From a bacterium (GTDB lineage Bacteria; UBA9089; CG2-30-40-21; SBAY01), in assembly GCA_040757115.1 (NCBI GenBank), contig JBFLYA010000075.1, forward strand, positions 1 to 16,932: a DNA stretch of 16,932 bases, given 5' to 3'. A program made the position numbers and the translations under genes. Positions 3,709 through 16,758 of this stretch are shown here, one piece after another; position 1 is the stretch's first letter; every line of letters begins with the position of its first letter. The notes beneath the pieces are model-generated. The model was not told the origin of the DNA. It did no database searches and worked only from the letters and a program-made list of their open reading frames with translations.

Positions 3709-4686
3709 TTATTTCACCACTGCTGGCATAAATTCTGTAGAGCCATAGATACCGTAGATGCCGTGTTCATTGAGCCATTTTGCCCGTTTAAGATAACCCA
3801 GTGCCGGCCCAATGACATTTGCCGCCATTGTTGTTTCATCACCGAGTATAAATTTATGGCTTGAGATTTTCCCATCAAAGGTCTTACCGGTTAATGTCAT
3901 TGTTGTCGTTACTGGTTTTTTAGCATGTCGGGTATCCAGGACTCCACCTACTTCAACCTTATCTCTTAAATCGACTACACCTGCTTTTTGGAGAAGTAAA
4001 TCATCGGCATGTTCCATCTCATGCAATTCTAATATCCCATTTCGTTCGTCTAACAACTTTGTTACATCTTCATCCGAGAGTGCCTTTGCTTTTTCAACAG
4101 TAAATCCGGGTAAATGGGCAATATCTTCACGAATAGTGGCTTTATATGCCTCCCAATTGGCTATTCCGACACCCCACCAGATGATCACTTTTGAAACTTC
4201 AATAAATGATTGAGCGGCTATGACCGCCGCCGCAGTTAATAAGCCTGGTGTTGCCCCGGCGCCAGTAATGTAAGTGTTCTTCGTTGATTTTAGCCCTTCG
4301 TTTAGTTCAAACATCAATTCCATCGCCTGGGTCCTTTTCAGGGCATCAGTCCATACCCCCTGGTATCCAGCATCAATAAACCGTTGAGTAACTCCTGGAA
4401 TGAATTCATTTGGCAAATTAGGCAAGGCGACAAATATGCCATCAATGTCATTACTTAGTTTTATAATCTCGCCAATTGAGTCATCAGACATTTTCCCATC
4501 AGGCATTTTACCCACGGTTGAACCTATTTTAATCTCTTCAATTTCCGCACAATTAAGTCCATCTGGATTAAAGGCAAATCCCTGATGGTCGCAAATAGCG
4601 ATTAATCTCATCTCTTTTTTCAAACTAATAATTTTCCCCGCGGCTTTACCTAAACCACCTGCACCTAACACGGCTATTCGCATCAT
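3709..4686 (-). CDS. Saccharopine dehydrogenase-like NAD(P)-binding oxidoreductase
   Basis: The 325-aa soluble protein has an N-terminal Rossmann fold: MRIAVLGAGGLGKAAG, with the dinucleotide-binding GxGxxG-type loop at residues 8-13. A central GAGATPGLLTAAAVIA segment and a C-terminal alpha/beta part resemble proteins annotated as saccharopine dehydrogenase-like oxidoreductases. The substrate cannot be told; lysine-pathway or carboxynorspermidine-type chemistry are family possibilities only. An open frame extends 49 codons further upstream to 4833, but it is encoded by a repeat element. I choose the ATG at 4686 because AGGAGG lies 12 bases upstream and the Rossmann motif follows at once. An ATG at 4710 is possible but lies upstream of that site. 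It is likely transcribed alone from the promoter at 4866-4895. Confidence 0.7.
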   Translation of the reverse strand: MMRIAVLGAGGLGKAAGKIISLKKEMRLIAICDHQGFAFNPDGLNCAEIEEIKIGSTVGKMPDGKMSDDSIGEIIKLSNDIDGIFVALPNLPNEFIPGVTQRFIDAGYQGVWTDALKRTQAMELMFELNEGLKSTKNTYITGAGATPGLLTAAAVIAAQSFIEVSKVIIWWGVGIANWEAYKATIREDIAHLPGFTVEKAKALSDEDVTKLLDERNGILELHEMEHADDLLLQKAGVVDLRDKVEVGGVLDTRHAKKPVTTTMTLTGKTFDGKISSHKFILGDETTMAANVIGPALGYLKRAKWLNEHGIYGIYGSTEFMPAVVK

Positions 4687-4710
4687 TTTCTTTTTTAGCC
4701 TCCTGCTCAT

Positions 4711-4865
4711 AGTGTCGTGTTGAACAAATAACGCACTGAATTTGATTCTGGTAACTGGTGATTGGTAACTGGTAATTAAATACCGTTTGGCTAAGCTCAG
4801 GACGAAACTATTTAACCAATTACCAGTTACCAATTATCCGTTTGTAGGTTACTCAACACTACACT
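4711..4865. mobile_element. MITE-like inverted-repeat element in a gene leader
   Basis: The ends are inverted copies of AGTGTCGTGTTGA (from 4711) and AGTGTAGTGTTGA (minus strand; the outer end carries an extra AGTGT repeat finishing at 4865). Inside is a second inverted pair made of GGTAACTGGTGATT-type heptamers (about 4748-4773 and 4813-4836). The heptamers match the large array at 12752. No target-site duplication is seen and no gene is encoded. It lies between the promoter and the ribosome-binding site of the oxidoreductase gene, so it would be transcribed as a hairpin leader. Confidence 0.65.
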
Positions 4866-8443: not shown

Positions 8444-8734
8444 ATGTTAGAGGATTTATTGACCACCAGGCAGTTAGCTGATTATTTAAAGGTACATGAA
8501 ATGACCATTTATAAGCTCCTTCAATCTCAAGAAATCCCTGCTATCAAGGTGGGTAGAAAGTGGAGATTTAGAAAAACTACTATTAAATTATGGATTGAAG
8601 AGCGAGAGGCTGAGAGCGTCAAAAGATGGACTCCTCAAACTACTAAACCAAAAAGATGGAATGCACAGATAGAAATGATAGAAGTAGAAGAAAGAGAGAA
8701 GGAGTTGTATGATATTTTTAAGGTGGAGATTTGA
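8444..8734 (+). CDS. Excisionase-family helix-turn-helix DNA-binding protein
   Basis: The 96-aa protein has an N-terminal winged-helix domain of the HTH_17/MerR-like excisionase type: LTTRQLADYLKVHEMTIYKL, then IPAIKVGRKWRFRKTTIKLW (residues 6-55). This is the usual DNA-binding unit of such proteins. Residues 56-96 are charged and helical with no known domain; they may dimerise. GGGGTG lies seven bases before the ATG. It has a strong promoter and is the first plus-strand gene before the KaiC cluster, separated from it by a repeat element of about 230 bp. It may regulate the cluster or a mobile function; no integrase is near, so an excision role is unlikely. Confidence 0.8.
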   Translation: MLEDLLTTRQLADYLKVHEMTIYKLLQSQEIPAIKVGRKWRFRKTTIKLWIEEREAESVKRWTPQTTKPKRWNAQIEMIEVEEREKELYDIFKVEI

Positions 8735-9114: not shown

Positions 9115-10503
9115 ATGGAAGAGATTAAAAGAATAAAGACAGGTATTGAAAATTTGGATGACAAAATCCTGGGAGGAGGAATACCTACATACTCTGTAAA
9201 TATCATTGGTGGTACCCCTGGTAGTGGCAAAACTATCCTTACTCAGCAAATTCTCTTTAACAACGCCTCTCCTAAAACAAGGACGATTTACTTTACTACC
9301 GTCTCTGAGCCTACTGCCAAGCTTATTCATTATCAAAGAAGTTTTGATTATTTTGATGAACAGAAGGTCCGGGATGGTGTAGTCTCCTATGTTGATATTG
9401 GACATATTATTCATAGAGATGGTTTACAGGCGGGTATTGAAGCAATTACTGCGGCTATTGATAAGCACTCTGCTTCTATTGTAGCTATTGATTCATTTAA
9501 GGCAGTAAATGAATTAGCTGAATCTATTTCTGCCTTCCGTCAATTTGCCTATAGGTTATGTGTAGAATTGATTGCCTGGCGTTGTACTTCTTTTTTAGTA
9601 GGTGAATATAATCAAGAGGCTTTAGAAAAAGAACCAATATTTGCCGTTGCTGATGGTATTATTCACTTAGATAATAAGATTCAAGGGGTACAAAACCGCA
9701 GGACTCTTCAAATAACCAAGATGCGTGGTGTGAACTATTTTGATGGTATTCACTCACTTAGTATCTCTAAAAAGGGTATTGATGTCTTCCCTCGAGCTAA
9801 AACACCACCTAAACTATCATTTGAGCATCTTGGAGAAAGAAAAATATCCACAGGCGTTTCGGGATTAAATGAAATGACTGCTTCAGGGTTACCACTTGGT
9901 TCATCTACATTGGTTGCAGGAGGGGCTGGAACGGGTAAGACTACCTTAGCACTTCACTTCCTTATGAATGGAGTAAAAAATAAAGAACCAGGATTGATGG
10001 TTACCTATCAAGAGACTCCAGATCAATTGGAGATTATAGGTAAAGGTTTTGGCTGGAATTTGAAAAAATATGAAGAAGAAGGTTTGCTAAAGATTATCTA
10101 TACCTCTCCGGTTGAGTTAGATATAGATGAACATGCCATTGCTATTAAAAAAGCAGTTGAAGAGGGTAGTCTTAAAAGGGTAGTTATTGACAACCTGAGA
10201 GATATTGAAATTGTTGCTAATAACACAGTTCGCTATCATGATTATGTCTATTCATTGGTTAATTTCTTTAAGTCTAAAACGATTACTTCGATATTGACTA
10301 CTGAGACAGAAGAGCTTTTTGGTGTACCAAGACTATCCAGTGGTATTTCGTTTATTGCTGATAATGTCATCTTGCTAAATTATATGAATGTAGAATCTGT
10401 TATCAAAAGAGCGATGACAGTCTTGAAGGTAAGAGGTAGTGACCATGATAAGGAGATAAAAGAGTTTGTGATTACATCTGCTGGAATGGAAGTAAAAATC
10501 TAA
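9115..10503 (+). CDS. KaiC-like double-domain RecA-fold ATPase (KaiC-1)
   Basis: The 462-aa protein has two tandem KaiC (RecA/RadA-type) domains. Domain CI is about residues 1-230, with Walker A GTPGSGKT (33-40), Walker B IVAIDS and ITKMRG. Domain CII is about 243-462, with Walker A GGAGTGKT (269-276), Walker B VVIDN and KVRGSDHDKEI. The paired catalytic glutamates of KaiC are reduced: S64-E65 in CI and Q299-E300 in CII. At the KaiC phospho-site segment, S431 aligns with S412 and T432 with F413. It ends soon after the last strand and lacks the A-loop/KaiA-binding tail of the 519-aa clock KaiC. The start has AGAGGAAG seven bases upstream. It probably acts as an ATP-driven hexameric signalling switch, not a KaiABC clock; partners are likely the downstream genes. 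Confidence 0.88.
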   Translation: MEEIKRIKTGIENLDDKILGGGIPTYSVNIIGGTPGSGKTILTQQILFNNASPKTRTIYFTTVSEPTAKLIHYQRSFDYFDEQKVRDGVVSYVDIGHIIHRDGLQAGIEAITAAIDKHSASIVAIDSFKAVNELAESISAFRQFAYRLCVELIAWRCTSFLVGEYNQEALEKEPIFAVADGIIHLDNKIQGVQNRRTLQITKMRGVNYFDGIHSLSISKKGIDVFPRAKTPPKLSFEHLGERKISTGVSGLNEMTASGLPLGSSTLVAGGAGTGKTTLALHFLMNGVKNKEPGLMVTYQETPDQLEIIGKGFGWNLKKYEEEGLLKIIYTSPVELDIDEHAIAIKKAVEEGSLKRVVIDNLRDIEIVANNTVRYHDYVYSLVNFFKSKTITSILTTETEELFGVPRLSSGISFIADNVILLNYMNVESVIKRAMTVLKVRGSDHDKEIKEFVITSAGMEVKI

Positions 10504-10613
10504 GAAGATTTAGCATTTCTACGCCGTTCCCGACGATCCTGAATGTGAAATACTAAAAGAAATACACCAGCAACAATAGAAAAACTGAAAAGTACAAGAG
10601 TAGCCGCTTCCAT
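10500..10613 (-). CDS. 37-aa single-TM membrane protein
   Basis: This very short gene encodes a 37-aa protein: one hydrophobic helix (about residues 3-22, TLVLFSFSIVAGVFLLVF) and a strongly basic tail (DRRERRRNAKSS) expected in the cytoplasm. AGGAGG lies nine bases before the ATG. The ATG follows the stop of the upstream 64-aa gene by four bases, so the two are co-translated from one promoter. Its stop codon overlaps the stop of the convergent KaiC-1 gene. No known family is recognised. The good ribosome-binding site, tight spacing and TM/basic-tail design make a real gene likely despite its length. Confidence 0.7.
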   Translation of the reverse strand: MEAATLVLFSFSIVAGVFLLVFHIQDRRERRRNAKSS

Positions 10614-10617
10614 CAGT

Positions 10618-10812
10618 TTATTCCTCCTTGTCTTTAGGGATTAAAAAGTAGGCTCCTATTGTCAATAGGATAGCACATATTATTCCACTCATTAAGTAAA
10701 GAGGTTTGAAAATACCTGTTATCAAACTACCAATTATACCGACAGTTAGGATAAACTTTACTATATCAAAAAATAAATCAGCTAATTTTTCACGACGCTT
10801 GCGATTATACAT
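10618..10812 (-). CDS. 64-aa two-TM membrane protein, DUF6722-like
   Basis: The 64-aa protein has a basic N-terminus (YNRKRREKLADLFFD) and two hydrophobic helices (about residues 16-34 and 38-57), with a charged KDKEE end. The opening KLADLFFDIVKFIL and two-helix layout recall the small DUF6722 membrane proteins, a match from memory only. It is the first gene of a two-gene operon with the 37-aa protein, driven by a consensus promoter. The leader is about 11 nt and carries only a weak GAG site. The function is unknown. The position, antisense to the gap between two KaiC-cluster genes, suggests a separately controlled or inserted module. Confidence 0.72.
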   Translation of the reverse strand: MYNRKRREKLADLFFDIVKFILTVGIIGSLITGIFKPLYLMSGIICAILLTIGAYFLIPKDKEE

Positions 10813-10830
10813 AGTTTTTTCTCTTATTTA

Positions 10831-10859
10831 ATTATAACCAATATTTCTATGAATGTCAA
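10831..10859 (-). promoter_or_regulatory. Perfect consensus sigma70-type promoter
   Basis: Minus strand: TTGACA (10854-10859), 17-bp spacer, TATAAT (10831-10836). Both hexamers and the spacer are the exact consensus. It drives the two small membrane-protein genes; the start codon at 10812 is about 11 nt from the expected transcription start. Confidence 0.85.
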
Positions 10860-10892
10860 GAAAAAAATGCTACAAGAGGGAGGTAAGTAAGA

Positions 10893-11312
10893 ATGAATGA
10901 AAAAAAGTATTCAGAAAAGGAAGTAGAGACGAAAATCAAACAAGAGATAATAGGTCTCTATGAGGAATTGTTTAAAACCCTCTGGGAGAAGATTGCTGTT
11001 ACCTTAGGCGGGATAACTTTAGTAGCTTTATTCCGACGAATTATTAGAAAGGTCTCTTTAAAATACACATGGATGAAAAGAGTAGAGGTAGGAGAAGAAG
11101 GACTTGATTTTAAAAATTTACACCGTAAGATGTGTGAGAGTGATAAAGAGGTAATGAAAGAGGGATTTAATACTGTTATTGCTGAATTATTCTCCTTCTT
11201 AACACAAATGACCGGTGATATTTTAATAGGTGAGCTGGAAAATATAGTTGAGAAATACATACCAGAAATGAAAGAGGAATCACGCACTACGAATAAGGAA
11301 TTAATTTTTTAG
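10893..11312 (+). CDS. KaiC-cluster small protein, paralogue 1
   Basis: I do not recognise the family of this 139-aa protein. A charged N-terminal helix (residues 8-33) leads into a hydrophobic stretch (34-47, IAVTLGGITLVALF), then RRIIRK, KYT (57-59), a VEVGEEGLDF segment, and a second helical part with ELFSFLTQMTGD. It aligns without gaps to the 127-aa product of 13066-13449: I count 37 identities in 99 columns, including W31, TLG, VAL, RR, KYT, EG, GF and TGD. GGGAGG lies nine bases before the ATG. It is followed after 33 bases by the second KaiC gene. It could be a partner or membrane adaptor for KaiC; the hydrophobic run is short for a full membrane helix. Confidence 0.8.
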   Translation: MNEKKYSEKEVETKIKQEIIGLYEELFKTLWEKIAVTLGGITLVALFRRIIRKVSLKYTWMKRVEVGEEGLDFKNLHRKMCESDKEVMKEGFNTVIAELFSFLTQMTGDILIGELENIVEKYIPEMKEESRTTNKELIF

Positions 11313-11345
11313 AATTTCATCTGACTAAAAAGGAGGAATAAAGTC

Positions 11346-12770
11346 ATGTCAATAAGAATTAAAAAATCAGTTTCTACAGTAGATTTAAAACCTCTCCATA
11401 CAGGCTTAAGAGGTTTTGATGAGATTATCTTGCCAAATGGCTTACCACTGTATTCTCTTAACGCCATCACCGGCCATCCAGGTAGTGGTAAAACTGTATT
11501 TACTTACCAACTGCTGTTTAATAATGTTAGCAAAGAGAATAAAGCCTTATACTTTACCACCATCTCAGAGCCACCAATTAAGGTCATTCGCTATTTGCAG
11601 CAGTTTAAGTTTTTTGACAAAGAGAAATTCTTCAAGTATATTAAGGTGATAGACCTGGGAAGTGTCTTAAGGAAAGAGGGATTAGAAAAAGGTATTAAGT
11701 TTGTCATAAATAAGATTGATGAGGAGGAGGCAAAGATTGTAGCTATAGATAGTTTTAAAGCTATTCATACTCTACTTGGGTCTGAAGAAGAGATTCGTAA
11801 ATTTACCTATGATTTAGGGGTTGAACTTCTTGCTTATCAATGCACATCATTTTTAGTTGGTGAGTATACAGAAGCGGAGACAGAGCAAGAACCAATATTT
11901 GCCATTGCAGATAGTATCATCAATATCTCATCCGATACCAAAGGATATTTACGCAGACGCTACTTAGAGATACACAAGATGCGCGGCTCTGGTTACTTTG
12001 CTGGTAAACATCGGTTCTCAATTACAAAGGATGGAATTATAGTTCATCCAAGACTTATGCCAAAGCAGAAAATGGTCAAACCTGATATAGATGTTTCCTG
12101 CCCAAAAATAAAGACAGGGATAAAAGGTTTAGATAAGATGCTTAATGGCGGCCTCTTTACAGGTTCATCTACACTAATAGCGGGTAATTCAGGGACAGGA
12201 AAGACTACTTTAGCTCTTAAATTTCTACAGGAAGGAGCTATAAATGATGAGCGGGGACTTTTAATATCATTTGAGGAATCACCTAATTTGATATTCAGAT
12301 TAGCAAACTCATTTAATATCCCGTTGGCAGAGTTGGTAAAAGAAAATAAGATTATCATCTTACATTACTCCCCAGTAGAGCTAAATGTAGATGAATTTCA
12401 TGCAAAGATTATGGAGGTTACACATCAACAACAGATACAACGAGTGGTTATAGATTCAATAGCGGATATTGAGGTATCCATTGGAGACCCTACACATCTT
12501 AAAAATTATATACTATCTTTAATAGACTACTTTAATGAACAATCTATAACCAGTATTTTGACATCAGAATCAATTGAAGGGACTACCTTTGGTATTACAG
12601 AAACTAAACTTTCAGTGATTATTGATGTCATCATCCAATTAAGATATAAGGAGGAAGAAGGGAGGATAAATAAATATATTACTATTCTCAAGATGCGCGG
12701 TTCTGACCATGATAAGGAAATTAAGAAGTTTGAGATTACAAACTCTGGGATGGTAATTGGTAACTGGTAA
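11346..12770 (+). CDS. KaiC-like double-domain RecA-fold ATPase (KaiC-2)
   Basis: The 474-aa paralogue of KaiC-1 has the same two-domain plan. CI has Walker A GHPGSGKT (43-50), S74-E75 at the catalytic Glu pair, IVAIDS and IHKMRG. CII has Walker A GNSGTGKT (280-287), the intact Glu pair E310-E311, VVIDS and KMRGSDHDKEI. At the phospho-site segment, T426 aligns with T418-region Thr (TET), S431 with S423 and T432 with V424. It also lacks the KaiA-binding tail. AAGGAGG lies nine bases before the ATG. The last residues VIGNW and the stop codon are read from the heptamer array that begins at 12752, so the natural C-terminus has been replaced or trimmed. CII is the best candidate in the cluster for an active kinase/ATPase site. 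Confidence 0.88.
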   Translation: MSIRIKKSVSTVDLKPLHTGLRGFDEIILPNGLPLYSLNAITGHPGSGKTVFTYQLLFNNVSKENKALYFTTISEPPIKVIRYLQQFKFFDKEKFFKYIKVIDLGSVLRKEGLEKGIKFVINKIDEEEAKIVAIDSFKAIHTLLGSEEEIRKFTYDLGVELLAYQCTSFLVGEYTEAETEQEPIFAIADSIINISSDTKGYLRRRYLEIHKMRGSGYFAGKHRFSITKDGIIVHPRLMPKQKMVKPDIDVSCPKIKTGIKGLDKMLNGGLFTGSSTLIAGNSGTGKTTLALKFLQEGAINDERGLLISFEESPNLIFRLANSFNIPLAELVKENKIIILHYSPVELNVDEFHAKIMEVTHQQQIQRVVIDSIADIEVSIGDPTHLKNYILSLIDYFNEQSITSILTSESIEGTTFGITETKLSVIIDVIIQLRYKEEEGRINKYITILKMRGSDHDKEIKKFEITNSGMVIGNW

Positions 12771-13047
12771 TTGGTAACTGGTGATTGGTGATTGGTGATT
12801 GGTAACTGGTGATTGGTAACTGGTAATTGGTAACTGGTGATTGGTAACTGGTAATTGGTAACTGGTAATTGGTAACTGGTGATTGGTAACTGGTGATTGG
12901 TAACTGGTGATTGGTAACTGGTGATTGGTAACTGGTAATTGGTAACTGGTAATTGGTAACTGGTGATTGGTAACTGGTAATTGGTAACTGGTAATTGGTA
13001 ACTGGTGATTGGTAACCATTTAACCAGTTACCATTTAACCAATTACC
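12752..13047. repeat. 38-unit heptamer array GGTRAYT with inverted arm
   Basis: Positions 12752-13017 are 38 consecutive 7-bp units with no insertion or deletion: mostly GGTAACT alternating with GGTAATT or GGTGATT. Positions 13018-13047 hold the inverted form (AACCAGTTACC, AACCAATTACC), giving hairpin potential. The array supplies the stop codon of KaiC-2 and ends 18 bases before the next ATG. It leaves a long open frame on the other strand that is a repeat artefact. There are no spacers, so it is not CRISPR. Confidence 0.95.
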
Positions 13048-13065
13048 AAATAAAGGAGGACTTCA

Positions 13066-13449
13066 ATGGAAAAGATAAGGGAAGAGGAAATTTTGACAGC
13101 TAAAAAGGAAGAGGTGGTAGATATCTATGAAGATTTGCTTAAGAAGGTGTGGGATAGGATTGTACTGACATTAGGGGCGGTTACTGTAGTTGCTCTGTGG
13201 CGTAGAGTGATTAAACGGACTGCTAAAAAATATACGATTCTTCAGTACTTAGATGTTACCACTGAGGGAATTCAGTTCCAAAAATTAAAATCCAGAATAT
13301 CTGAGCAGGAAAAAAAGATTATCAAGGATGGGTTTGAAGAGTTGATATTGGATCTATTTGATCTATTAGCTGAATTGACCGGGGATATGATTGTTGATAA
13401 ATTATTTAAGAATGAAGTTACAACCAGGCTGAAAAGTATCCCAGAATAA
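13066..13449 (+). CDS. KaiC-cluster small protein, paralogue 2
   Basis: This 127-aa protein is the paralogue of the product of 10893-11312 and keeps the same order: charged helix, W29, hydrophobic run 32-45 (IVLTLGAVTVVALW), RRVIKR, KYT (55-57), TTEGIQF, DGF and AELTGD, but ends sooner. AAAGGAGG lies six bases before the ATG. It follows the heptamer array and precedes the HD-GYP gene by about 50 bases, so paralogue 1 is paired with KaiC-2 and paralogue 2 with a cyclic-di-GMP enzyme. No known domain is recognised. The repeated pairing suggests a shared adaptor or regulator role; this is inference. Confidence 0.8.
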   Translation: MEKIREEEILTAKKEEVVDIYEDLLKKVWDRIVLTLGAVTVVALWRRVIKRTAKKYTILQYLDVTTEGIQFQKLKSRISEQEKKIIKDGFEELILDLFDLLAELTGDMIVDKLFKNEVTTRLKSIPE

Positions 13450-13450
13450 C

Positions 13451-13484
13451 AAAAGTAGAGAGTAGAAAGTAAAGAGAAATAAAG
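13451..13484. repeat. Short AGTAGAG heptamer run
   Basis: A few 7-bp units (AAGTAGA, GAGTAGA, AAGTAAA) follow the stop of the small protein. It is the same family as the longer array at 15073-15162, without an inverted arm. Confidence 0.7.
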
Positions 13485-13502
13485 CTGATGCAGGAGGAAA
13501 AA

Positions 13503-15080
13503 ATGATACAAGAAAAAAGTAAATCTTATTTAGAAGAACTTTATAAAATCTCGGAGTTGATGAGTTCTACATTTGACTTAGAAGAATTGTTAGAATTGAT
13601 TATGGACTCAAGTATTAGAGTAACTAAGGCAGATGAAGGCTCCCTGATGCTTTTAGATGATAAAGAAGAAACTCTACAGATTAAGGTTGCAAGAGGTCTG
13701 CCAGAAGAGGCTAAGAAATCAGTCAGAATCAAAGTTGGCGAGCCAATTGCAGGCCTGGTAGCTAAAGAGGGAAAACCATTGCTTCTTACACACCAGAGTA
13801 TTAGACAAGACCCCAGACTTTCAGCCCTTCAGGAAAGAGGAGCTATTAAATCAGCTCTTTCTATCCCCTTAAAGACTAAGGATAAGGTCATTGGGGTACT
13901 TAATTTGAATGTCATTATTACTGAGGCTACTTTTACTAAAGAAGATGTAGCACCTCTTACTATTTTTGCTGCACAAGCTGCCGTGGCGATTGAAAATGCT
14001 ATGCTTTATTCTACTGCACAGCGTCGTACTGGAGAACTTATCATACTGAATAGAATTGGCAAAATGCTTAGTTCTACATTTGAGCAAGACCAGGTGTTAA
14101 AATTAATGTCAAAAAGTCTTGAGGAGATGATAGAGTTTGATATATTGACTTTACTTTTGTTAAATAGTGAGCGAGCAATGTTAAATATAATTTCACAAGA
14201 GCCTATTTCAGATGAATTAGTGGAGAAGGCTAAATTTCATCTGATTGATATACTTTGTGAATTTACAAATTGGAATTTTGATAAAAATCCAATCATTATC
14301 AAAAAAGCATTTAGAAAAAAGAGGCGAAAGGTTGTTTCCCATCCAATCAAATCTACCTTGAGTCTTCCTTTAGTGGCTAAAGATGAGACAATTGGTGCAG
14401 TAAGTATTTCAAGCTTTCAACCCAATGCCTTTACTCAGGATAACTTAAGAATGTTTTCTACCTTAACACCACAGGTGGCGATTGCCTTAGAGAATGCACG
14501 CATTTATATAGATATGCAAGACCTTTACACTGGTACGGTCGAGGCGTTGGCTTCGGAGATAGAAACTCGGAATCCATACACTCGGGGTCATTCAGAGCGG
14601 GTAACTCATTATGCGGTTAAAATGGCTAAAAAATTAGGATTTAATCAAAAAGAGATTGAGGTGATGAGATACGCAGGACTTCTACATGACCTGGGTAAGA
14701 TTGGTATCAGTGACCAGGTTTTACTTAAACCAGGTAAATTAACTGATGAAGAATACGACACAATGAAACATCATCCAATCAAAAGTGAATCTATTTTACG
14801 GGTAATTGCATTTTTACGACAGATATTGCCCATTGTTCGCCATCATCATGAGCATTATAATGGGAAAGGCTATCCCGATGGATTAAAGAGTAAAAAGATA
14901 CCATTAGGTGCTCGGATTATTACTGTAGCCGATGCCTTTGATGCTATGACTTCTGATAGGCCTTATCGAGAGGCAAAATCTGTAGAAGAAGCTATAGAGA
15001 TATTAAAAGAATGCTCAGGTACTCAGTTTGACCCAAAGATAGTCAAAACATTTCTGGAAATAGTAGCAGAGGAAAAGTAG
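13503..15080 (+). CDS. GAF-GAF-HD-GYP cyclic-di-GMP phosphodiesterase
   Basis: The 525-aa soluble protein is predicted to hydrolyse cyclic-di-GMP. GAF 1 is about residues 20-170 and GAF 2 about 185-340; both are small-molecule or redox sensing modules with no clear ligand residues. The HD-GYP domain is about 345-525, with TRGHSERV, the metal-binding HDLGKIG (H395-D396), HHHEH (447-451), GYPDG (456-460) and DAFDAMTSDRPYR. All catalytic motifs are intact. I choose the ATG at 13503 because AGGAGG sits five bases upstream; the in-frame ATG at 13488 has no such site. The stop codon TAG lies inside an AGTAGAG heptamer run. It follows a KaiC-cluster small protein and precedes a cyclase, so it probably opposes it. 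Confidence 0.92.
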   Translation: MIQEKSKSYLEELYKISELMSSTFDLEELLELIMDSSIRVTKADEGSLMLLDDKEETLQIKVARGLPEEAKKSVRIKVGEPIAGLVAKEGKPLLLTHQSIRQDPRLSALQERGAIKSALSIPLKTKDKVIGVLNLNVIITEATFTKEDVAPLTIFAAQAAVAIENAMLYSTAQRRTGELIILNRIGKMLSSTFEQDQVLKLMSKSLEEMIEFDILTLLLLNSERAMLNIISQEPISDELVEKAKFHLIDILCEFTNWNFDKNPIIIKKAFRKKRRKVVSHPIKSTLSLPLVAKDETIGAVSISSFQPNAFTQDNLRMFSTLTPQVAIALENARIYIDMQDLYTGTVEALASEIETRNPYTRGHSERVTHYAVKMAKKLGFNQKEIEVMRYAGLLHDLGKIGISDQVLLKPGKLTDEEYDTMKHHPIKSESILRVIAFLRQILPIVRHHHEHYNGKGYPDGLKSKKIPLGARIITVADAFDAMTSDRPYREAKSVEEAIEILKECSGTQFDPKIVKTFLEIVAEEK

Positions 15081-15162
15081 AGAGTAGAGGGTAGAAAGTA
15101 GAGAGAAAAGAAAACCATGCAAAAGATTAGCCAAAAATCTCTCTACTCTCTACTTGCTACTT
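15073..15162. repeat. AGTAGAG heptamer array with inverted arm
   Basis: Positions 15073-15107 carry 7-bp units such as AGAGTAG, AGGGTAG and AAAGTAG. After a spacer, 15139-15162 is the inverted form (CTCTCTACTCTCTACTTGC), giving a hairpin. The first unit contributes the TAG stop of the HD-GYP gene. The hairpin has no U-tract, so it is not a typical terminator, and the next gene starts 21 bases later. Confidence 0.8.
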
Positions 15163-15183
15163 ATGATATAAGGAAGTAATCTA

Positions 15184-16758
15184 ATGCAAATAACAAAGGA
15201 TGATTTAGAGAAAAAACTAAATATGCTTGCTTTACTTTACCAAAAGACGGAAGTTTTCTTCTCTTTCTTACACATAGACAAGTTAGCATTAGAGATAGTT
15301 AAGAAGGCAAAGGGATTTTTAGAAGTAGAGATTTGCTCTTTAATGCTTAAAACAGACGATACACTATACATTGCCGCTGCAATAGGTTTAGTTAATGATA
15401 TAATCCAACAGACAAAAATAAAATTAGGTAAAGGGATATCAGGCTGGGTAGCTAAAACAGGGGAGCCCCTACTAATCAAAGATATAGAAAAGGATAAAAG
15501 AGTTCGGAAAAAACACCAATCCAAATATTATACTAAATCTTTATTATCAGTACCACTTAAAAAAGATAATAATGTCCTGGGCGTCCTTAACCTGAATAAT
15601 AAGAAAACTAAAGAGATTTTTAATGAGGATGATTTAAAATTAGCTACTATATTAGCTAATCAAGCAAGTTTGGCAATCGATAGAATTCAACTCATACAAC
15701 AAGAAGATGAGCAAAAGAGGATGGTAAAAAAGAGGACTCAAGAGTTAAATTCATTGTATAAATTAGGCATCAGATTAAGTTCTTCACTTAATTATATTGA
15801 GATAATACAAATCCTTGAGGAGGAGTTACATAAGATTTTCTATTCACCAATAATAGTCTTGATGCTATTTTGGGAAGGGATAAAGAAGGTAATAGTCAGC
15901 AGCCAGTATCGAATTACAGATACTATGATTGAAAGGGTTAAAAATGAGCTAACACATAAATTACCACTATTTTATGATGAAGAGGTAAATTTAGATAGTT
16001 TTGAGTTTACTATACATCAAAAAGAGGAAATTCTACCTGTATCTAAAAAGGAATTAGCTAAACATAAGGTCACTTCATTACTTTTACCGTTAGTCTCAGC
16101 AGATAATGTAATTGGGGTAATTAGCTTAGGAAATAATGTATCACATCCTTTTACCAAAGAAGACCTGAGGTTATTCAATATTATTGCGAATCATGGTGCT
16201 GTAGCTATTGAGCAGGCATTATTGCATAAAAGGGTAGAGGAATTAGCTATCACTGATGGTTTAACTGGATTATTTAATCATCGCCATTTTCAAGAATGCC
16301 TGGATACAGAATTTAAACAAGCTCACCGTTATGGTGGGCCGTTTTCGTTAATTATGTTAGATATAGATGATTTTAAGGATTATAATGATACTTATGGACA
16401 TATAGAGGGGGATGATGCATTAGTAAAAATGGCGAAGGTAATGAAAGAGAGCTTCAGGGAAGTAGATATTATTGCTCGTTATGGCGGTGAAGAATTTGTT
16501 GTCATTTTACCTCAGACGGATAATAAAGCGGCTTACTTAGCTGCTAATCGACTACGAGTGGCTGTAAAACGAACGAAGTTTATACAAGAGTCTTCTCTTA
16601 CTATTAGTCTTGGTGTAGCTACTTATCCACAACACGGTGCTCAAAAGATAGAATTAATTAGGAATGTTGATGAGGCGCTATATCAAGCTAAAAGTCGTGG
16701 GAAGAATCAAGTCTGTATTGCCGCTACATCCTCGCAGGTTACTCTAACAATAAACTAA
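15184..16758 (+). CDS. GAF-GAF-GGDEF diguanylate cyclase
   Basis: The 524-aa soluble protein is predicted to make cyclic-di-GMP. GAF 1 is about residues 20-170; a linker helix (residues 175-195, EDEQKRMVKKRTQEL) probably transmits the signal; GAF 2 is about 195-350; GGDEF is 355-515. The active-site motif GGEEF is at 434-438 and the inhibitory I-site RxxD at R425-D428, so feedback control is expected. The GGDEF start LAITDGLTGLFNHRHFQE closely matches that of the cyclase at 397-1854. AAGGAAG lies upstream of the ATG. It follows the HD-GYP gene in the same direction, making a make/break pair for cyclic-di-GMP in one locus. Confidence 0.92.
   Translation: MQITKDDLEKKLNMLALLYQKTEVFFSFLHIDKLALEIVKKAKGFLEVEICSLMLKTDDTLYIAAAIGLVNDIIQQTKIKLGKGISGWVAKTGEPLLIKDIEKDKRVRKKHQSKYYTKSLLSVPLKKDNNVLGVLNLNNKKTKEIFNEDDLKLATILANQASLAIDRIQLIQQEDEQKRMVKKRTQELNSLYKLGIRLSSSLNYIEIIQILEEELHKIFYSPIIVLMLFWEGIKKVIVSSQYRITDTMIERVKNELTHKLPLFYDEEVNLDSFEFTIHQKEEILPVSKKELAKHKVTSLLLPLVSADNVIGVISLGNNVSHPFTKEDLRLFNIIANHGAVAIEQALLHKRVEELAITDGLTGLFNHRHFQECLDTEFKQAHRYGGPFSLIMLDIDDFKDYNDTYGHIEGDDALVKMAKVMKESFREVDIIARYGGEEFVVILPQTDNKAAYLAANRLRVAVKRTKFIQESSLTISLGVATYPQHGAQKIELIRNVDEALYQAKSRGKNQVCIAATSSQVTLTIN

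Follow-up and report, generated by a model that had tools for sequence, protein, structure and literature searches.

Linkage of non-clock KaiC homologs to an undescribed small helical protein and, more loosely, to a c-di-GMP phosphodiesterase in an uncultured bacterium

KaiC homologs that occur without kaiA and kaiB are common in prokaryotes and, to our knowledge, what they do is largely unknown. This question is raised by a stretch of 16,932 nucleotides, the whole of contig JBFLYA010000075.1 (G000:C75; labels of the form G### denote genomes and L### loci), which is called the window below and comes from an uncultured bacterium whose genome (G000, 4.3 Mb) is 99.9% complete. The window encodes two KaiC homologs (KaiC1 and KaiC2), two copies (SP1 and SP2) of a small protein (SP), a cyclic-di-GMP (c-di-GMP) phosphodiesterase of the HD-GYP type and a diguanylate cyclase of the GGDEF type (Table 1). 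An initial annotation, made from the sequence of the window, had claimed these six open reading frames (ORFs) in one direction; all were found on the same span and strand, and domain searches confirmed KaiC, HD-GYP and GGDEF. The reading preferred here, which is given about an even chance, is that each of the two non-clock KaiCs at the locus forms a cognate pair with one SP, in which SP would be the partner of KaiC and a portable adaptor feeding HD-GYP and HTH_17 outputs.

SP and KaiC are a linked pair. Within the phylum sample (19 genomes), SP adjoins KaiC in G000, G001, G008, G011, G013, G014 and G018, and it lies directly 5' of KaiC with a 4-bp overlap in Prochloraceae, Symploca and a Chromatiaceae metagenome-assembled genome (L076, L077 and L078). 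The SP and KaiC genes also overlap in L128 (G433), as do those of KaiC1 and SP in L124. Two-domain KaiC proteins occur in 8 of the 19 phylum genomes, all 8 of them SP-bearing, and SP is found in G016 as well (Fisher p=1.2e-4, relatedness uncorrected). The link between KaiC and the small protein, which had been proposed from the window, is thus borne out by adjacency in several phyla, often with 4-bp overlaps, and by the co-divergence of cognate partners.

This co-divergence was followed in 10 outside SP-KaiC pairs with a paralog-swap control. It was found that the identity of SP1 tracks that of KaiC2 (r=0.91) and not that of KaiC1 (r=-0.05), and that the identity of SP2 tracks that of KaiC1 (r=0.91) and not that of KaiC2 (r=0.05). 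The distances of SP and KaiC are correlated (Mantel r=0.75, p=5e-5); the 10 pairs are few and include some close relatives, and a deduplicated rank test gives p=0.014. Since species history alone would give SP1 and SP2 the same pattern, the result argues for two putative cognate pairs, SP1-KaiC2 and SP2-KaiC1. The partnership of the first paralogue with KaiC2 suggested in the initial annotation is among them.

KaiC1 and KaiC2 are 43% identical; each has two KaiC domains and two P-loops (Walker A), and their PF06745 scores (Table 1) exceed the superfamily cut-off of 26.6 bits. They share the tandem RecA-like domains and the two P-loops with clock KaiC (PMC5520375), and their best sequence matches in the PDB are KaiC. 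Nevertheless, as judged by their sequences, they are not clock KaiCs. The NCBIfam cut-offs for the latter are not reached (TIGR02655, 220 and 189 bits against 546; PRK09302, 273 and 268 bits against 408). Ser is kept at position 431, Phe or Val stands in place of T432 in both proteins, and both end right after the KaiC domain, the C-terminal A-loop/tail that binds KaiA being absent. A tree of 24 KaiCs places every SP-linked member in a single clade (support 100/99), which also includes four KaiCs without an adjacent SP, and clock KaiC lies outside it. The absence of kaiA and kaiB, seen at first in the window, holds genome-wide: PF07688 and PF07689 gave no match anywhere in G000.

The positions of the two proteins in the tree differ as well. 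KaiC2 clusters with proteins from other families of the phylum (its orthologs in G014, G017 and G018 are 52-55% identical), and KaiC1 with those of G014, Cyanobacteria and Chromatiaceae; on these grounds the idea that a KaiC-SP unit was recently duplicated in tandem was rejected. Because SP1 co-diverges with KaiC2 and SP2 with KaiC1, the KaiCs do not have the look of recent duplicates, nor do the SPs. The small protein described earlier as duplicated is so in that SP1 and SP2 are paralogs (39% identity over 111 aa), the duplication being old and not recent.

The KaiC of S. elongatus uses E77 to activate water in CI and E318 as the catalytic base in CII (PMC2777353), and both catalytic Glu pairs are conserved in the cyanobacterial KaiC1, KaiC2 and KaiC3 groups (PMC5520375). 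In the SP clade, E77 is replaced by Ser ('SEP') in all 18 of the 18 KaiCs in which the CI motif was read, and KaiC1 and KaiC2 of the window both have 'SE' there. As the general-base glutamate is missing, the ATP site of the CI ring is probably slow or structural. The CII motif is 'QE' (E318 to Gln) in the KaiC1 branch and 'EE' (E318/E319) in KaiC2; since KaiC2 keeps the CII base, which KaiC1 lacks, KaiC2 is likely an active ATPase, and KaiC1 is most likely a mostly nucleotide-bound scaffold.

The second question is how firmly the c-di-GMP enzymes belong to the pair. Their domain layout and catalytic motifs are those of other GAF-HD-GYP and GAF-GGDEF enzymes; the motifs look intact in the HD-GYP protein (HDLGK and HHEHYNGKGYP, within a PF13487 match) and in the cyclase (GGEEF and an RxxD I-site, within a PF00990 match), and what sets the HD-GYP protein of the window apart from its kin is the gene order that ties it to SP and KaiC. 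Of the 17 SP loci in the phylum, 9 have an HD-GYP gene no more than 5 kb away, where 0.64 would be expected from HD-GYP density, and four of five families show this neighbourhood (P=6e-4). The order SP-KaiC2-HD-GYP recurs in L038 (G018, another family), KaiC2-HD-GYP-GAF histidine kinase is found in G017, HD-GYP-REC.GGDEF-SP-SP-KaiC in L031 (G011) and SP-HD-GYP in G014 and G016. HD-GYP as a neighbour of SP, part of the order outlined by the initial annotation, is thus borne out in the phylum. The full order SP-KaiC-SP-HD-GYP-GGDEF, whose conservation had been looked to for support, occurs only in this genome and is absent even from the sister genome G001, where KaiC2 is missing and the module pieces are spread over three contigs, some of them separated by PDDEXK_3 genes. 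The HD-GYP link is real but loose, and among the genomes searched it is confined to this phylum. The PDDEXK_3 genes (GxxExxY-like, possibly mobile) are seen in or beside the module pieces at L026, L027 and L028.

SP itself is an undescribed helical family of sporadic distribution. SP1 and SP2 gave no Pfam, NCBIfam or PDB sequence match, and their AlphaFold2 models (pLDDT in Table 1) agree in a long helix, a helix, a beta hairpin and a helix; no matching PDB fold was found for them in the Foldseek/VIA lists. A spidroin fold (Z 6.5) and a globin fold (Z ~3) were set aside, both lying inside the tool's stated noise. The family has no conserved His. It is rare, being present in 16 of 386 genomes (the phylum plus other Bacteria), 9 of the 16 belonging to this phylum; 3 of 292 genomes of the cyanobacterial phylum have it, and none was found in the viral contigs searched. 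SP occurs as a stand-alone protein encoded beside KaiC, HD-GYP or GGDEF genes; in other cases it is a domain of PAS-histidine kinases, of a receiver (REC) protein and of a DUF4388 protein. The kinases, with SP at the N-terminus, come from one family (f103) of high-GC genomes (L067-L069), the REC+SP architecture is that of L071, and SP lies beside GGDEF in L070 and L075, the latter with CheA-CheB-REC.GAF-SP-GGDEF together. Neither the SP family nor the module was found described in the literature, in which the archaeal KaiC-hub work is represented by a paper that cites it.

The six genes had been read as lying in one direction. The six are indeed on the same strand; two small minus-strand ORFs, however, lie between KaiC1 and SP1. 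The longer of these (64 aa) is conserved and has a perfect sigma-70-like promoter site (12/12, positions 10859-10831, minus strand), and therefore the run consists of two units, not one: the first comprises HTH_17 and KaiC1, the second SP1-KaiC2-SP2-HD-GYP-GGDEF, whose genes are 33, 295, 38 and 103 bp apart. In promoter and terminator scans of the locus, overall counts were at the level of shuffled sequence. The HTH_17 gene is assigned to the module because in G014, a genome of a different family, the HTH_17 ortholog, KaiC1 and an SP-like gene are consecutive with 4-bp overlaps; the match of this SP-like gene is limited to its first half.

Several observations weigh against the preferred reading. 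The SP tree is poorly resolved and cannot show the pairing alone, and so distances with the swapped-paralog control were used. In the window, the members of the cognate pairs lie 33 and ~2,560 bp apart, without overlap. The sister genome has SP1 without KaiC2, G016 has SP without a two-domain KaiC, G003 has the HD-GYP ortholog (75%) alone, without SP or KaiC, and SP stands next to an OmpA-like protein in L029:9973-10344 (with a NagZ-like one too) and L032:3483-4007, where neither KaiC nor c-di-GMP genes are present. In Cyanobacteria and Chromatiaceae the genes adjoining the SP-KaiC pair include no c-di-GMP enzyme. The 5-kb neighbourhood of SP contains a GGDEF gene at 4 of the 17 phylum loci and in two of five families, which is chance level (P=0.11); the cyclase as a fixed part of the module was rejected as unproven, a GAF histidine kinase occupying that place in G017.

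Some of these points fit the strongest rival, a possible if tentative one, in which SP-KaiC is a stand-alone unit acting only on DNA or transcription, through HTH_17 or a winged-helix output, and HD-GYP and GGDEF are mere neighbours or have an SP of their own. HTH_17 overlaps KaiC1 in G014, the KaiC1-type proteins of Cyanobacteria and Chromatiaceae have winged-helix-like C-terminal tails, the SP-KaiC pairs outside the phylum are without c-di-GMP neighbours, and the SP-HD-GYP arrangement of G016, lacking a two-domain KaiC, implies that SP can serve HD-GYP alone. This explanation does not account for the HD-GYP genes near SP in four of five families, nor for the recurrence of SP-KaiC2-HD-GYP in another family or the KaiC2-HD-GYP order of G017.

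It is less likely, and on the whole unlikely, that SP is a general helical module for dimerisation or ligand sensing which kinases, receivers, KaiC and c-di-GMP enzymes have in common, with no physical KaiC-SP complex and a linkage that reflects a shared input. The occurrence of the domain in PAS-histidine kinases, REC and DUF4388 proteins and beside GGDEF fits such a module, but the co-divergence is pair-specific under the swapped-paralog control, and the 4-bp overlaps recur specifically with KaiC. A chance neighbourhood of unrelated signalling genes is highly improbable: the phylum genomes have many HD-GYP (18) and GGDEF (11) genes and the GGDEF linkage is at chance level, yet SP adjoins KaiC in several phyla and the HD-GYP linkage is far above its expected value.

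Least probable of all is that SP is a divergent KaiA (a C-terminal helix bundle) and the locus a reduced Kai clock: SP resembles the C-terminal domain of KaiA as a small, helical, putative KaiC partner, and the REC+SP protein of L071 recalls the receiver-plus-bundle layout of KaiA, but a KaiA identity was rejected by profile comparison (hhalign probability 0.1%) and by the PF07688 search, the SP models contain a beta hairpin, the window KaiCs have no docking tail for KaiA and the genome has no KaiB. KaiA is absent from the Foldseek/VIA lists for the SP models, an absence that does not exclude the KaiA C-terminal fold.

Under the preferred reading of two cognate KaiC-SP pairs, the KaiCs would probably form double-ring, ATP-bound hexamers, by analogy with the known family, and SP would dock on its cognate KaiC. 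As a portable adaptor, SP would be placed beside GAF-GAF-HD-GYP proteins in this phylum and fused to histidine kinases or a receiver elsewhere. The signal would run from the nucleotide state, or a GAF ligand, through the KaiC-SP complex to HD-GYP activity and hence c-di-GMP breakdown, and a second output to DNA might pass through HTH_17. It is plausible that KaiC would gate c-di-GMP in this way. A stronger version is more doubtful, namely that SP is the general partner of the non-clock KaiC clade, replacing KaiA and KaiB and relaying the nucleotide state of KaiC to HD-GYP, so that a KaiC switch would set c-di-GMP.

Two known systems invite comparison. In S. elongatus, c-di-GMP shifts the KaiABC clock (PMC13001216); this likewise connects a KaiC system with c-di-GMP, but the effect is indirect and involves KaiABC, without SP and without a linked gene order. 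Archaeal KaiC-like 'signal transduction hubs' (Makarova et al. 2017, cited in PMC5847659), as far as the citing paper describes them, are similar in that non-clock KaiC ATPases are linked to small domains, receivers and PAS/V4R proteins, and the three-domain KaiC and V4R partners of G008, G011 and G013 are alike; the present system differs in being bacterial and in its c-di-GMP phosphodiesterase and SP family. In L031:3577-5661, a three-domain KaiC (694 aa) is preceded by two SPs and followed by a V4R protein, and L030 and L033 show the order KaiC (one domain)-SP-KaiC (two domains)-V4R.PAS. Two tandem KaiCs with winged-helix-like tails (L125:486-3865) lie in a Chromatiaceae genome, on a contig other than that of its SP-KaiC pair.

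The remaining features of the window are as follows. A relative of the 64-aa protein is encoded near the counterparts of SP2 and KaiC1 (SP2'/KaiC1') in L028. The 14-bp tandem arrays, TGGTGATTGGTAAC, occur also at 4749-4777, and similar short arrays are found in intergenic DNA of the window. On the minus strand, a REC-GAF-GGDEF response regulator and a CheB-like receiver-methylesterase overlap by 11 bp (397-2908), which adds another c-di-GMP cyclase close to the module; they are accompanied by a BioU-like (S)-8-amino-7-oxononanoate synthase homolog (3709-4833, 427.8 bits against a cut-off of 600) and an outer-membrane beta-barrel protein similar to the PEP-CTERM-associated TIGR03016 (6534-7649, 59 bits against a cut-off of 90.85).

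Table 1. Features of the KaiC locus in the window
Feature	Coordinates	Strand	Evidence
HTH_17/excisionase-type DNA-binding protein, probably first gene of the KaiC1 unit	8444-8734	+	PF12728, E=4e-16; G014 ortholog 49%
KaiC1, two-domain KaiC homolog	9115-10503	+	PF06745, E=4e-83, 278.6 bits, 2 domains
37-aa ORF, one predicted membrane helix (by eye)	10500-10613	-	ORF list
64-aa small hydrophobic protein	10618-10812	-	77% in the sister genome, same location (L026)
SP1, small helical protein	10893-11312	+	39% to SP2; AlphaFold2 pLDDT 79.6
KaiC2, two-domain KaiC homolog	11346-12770	+	PF06745, E=1.5e-80, 270.4 bits, 2 domains
14-bp tandem repeat array, 19 copies, spanning the KaiC2 end and the gap before SP2	12751-13016		Repeat scan
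SP2, small helical protein, 38 bp upstream of the HD-GYP gene	13066-13449	+	AlphaFold2 pLDDT 77
GAF-GAF-HD-GYP c-di-GMP phosphodiesterase	13488-15080	+	PF13487, E=1.6e-42, 145.6 bits; PF13185 x2
GAF-GAF-GGDEF diguanylate cyclase	15184-16758	+	PF00990, E=4.6e-47, 160 bits

That one clade of non-clock KaiCs has kept a cognate SP in several phyla offers a concrete starting point for work on the function of such KaiCs. The repeated SP/HD-GYP neighbourhood suggests a non-clock route by which the ATP state of the cell is fed into a c-di-GMP signal. In this one phylum HD-GYP is the predicted output, and, if this is true, an ATP-driven KaiC switch would be directly linked to c-di-GMP signalling.

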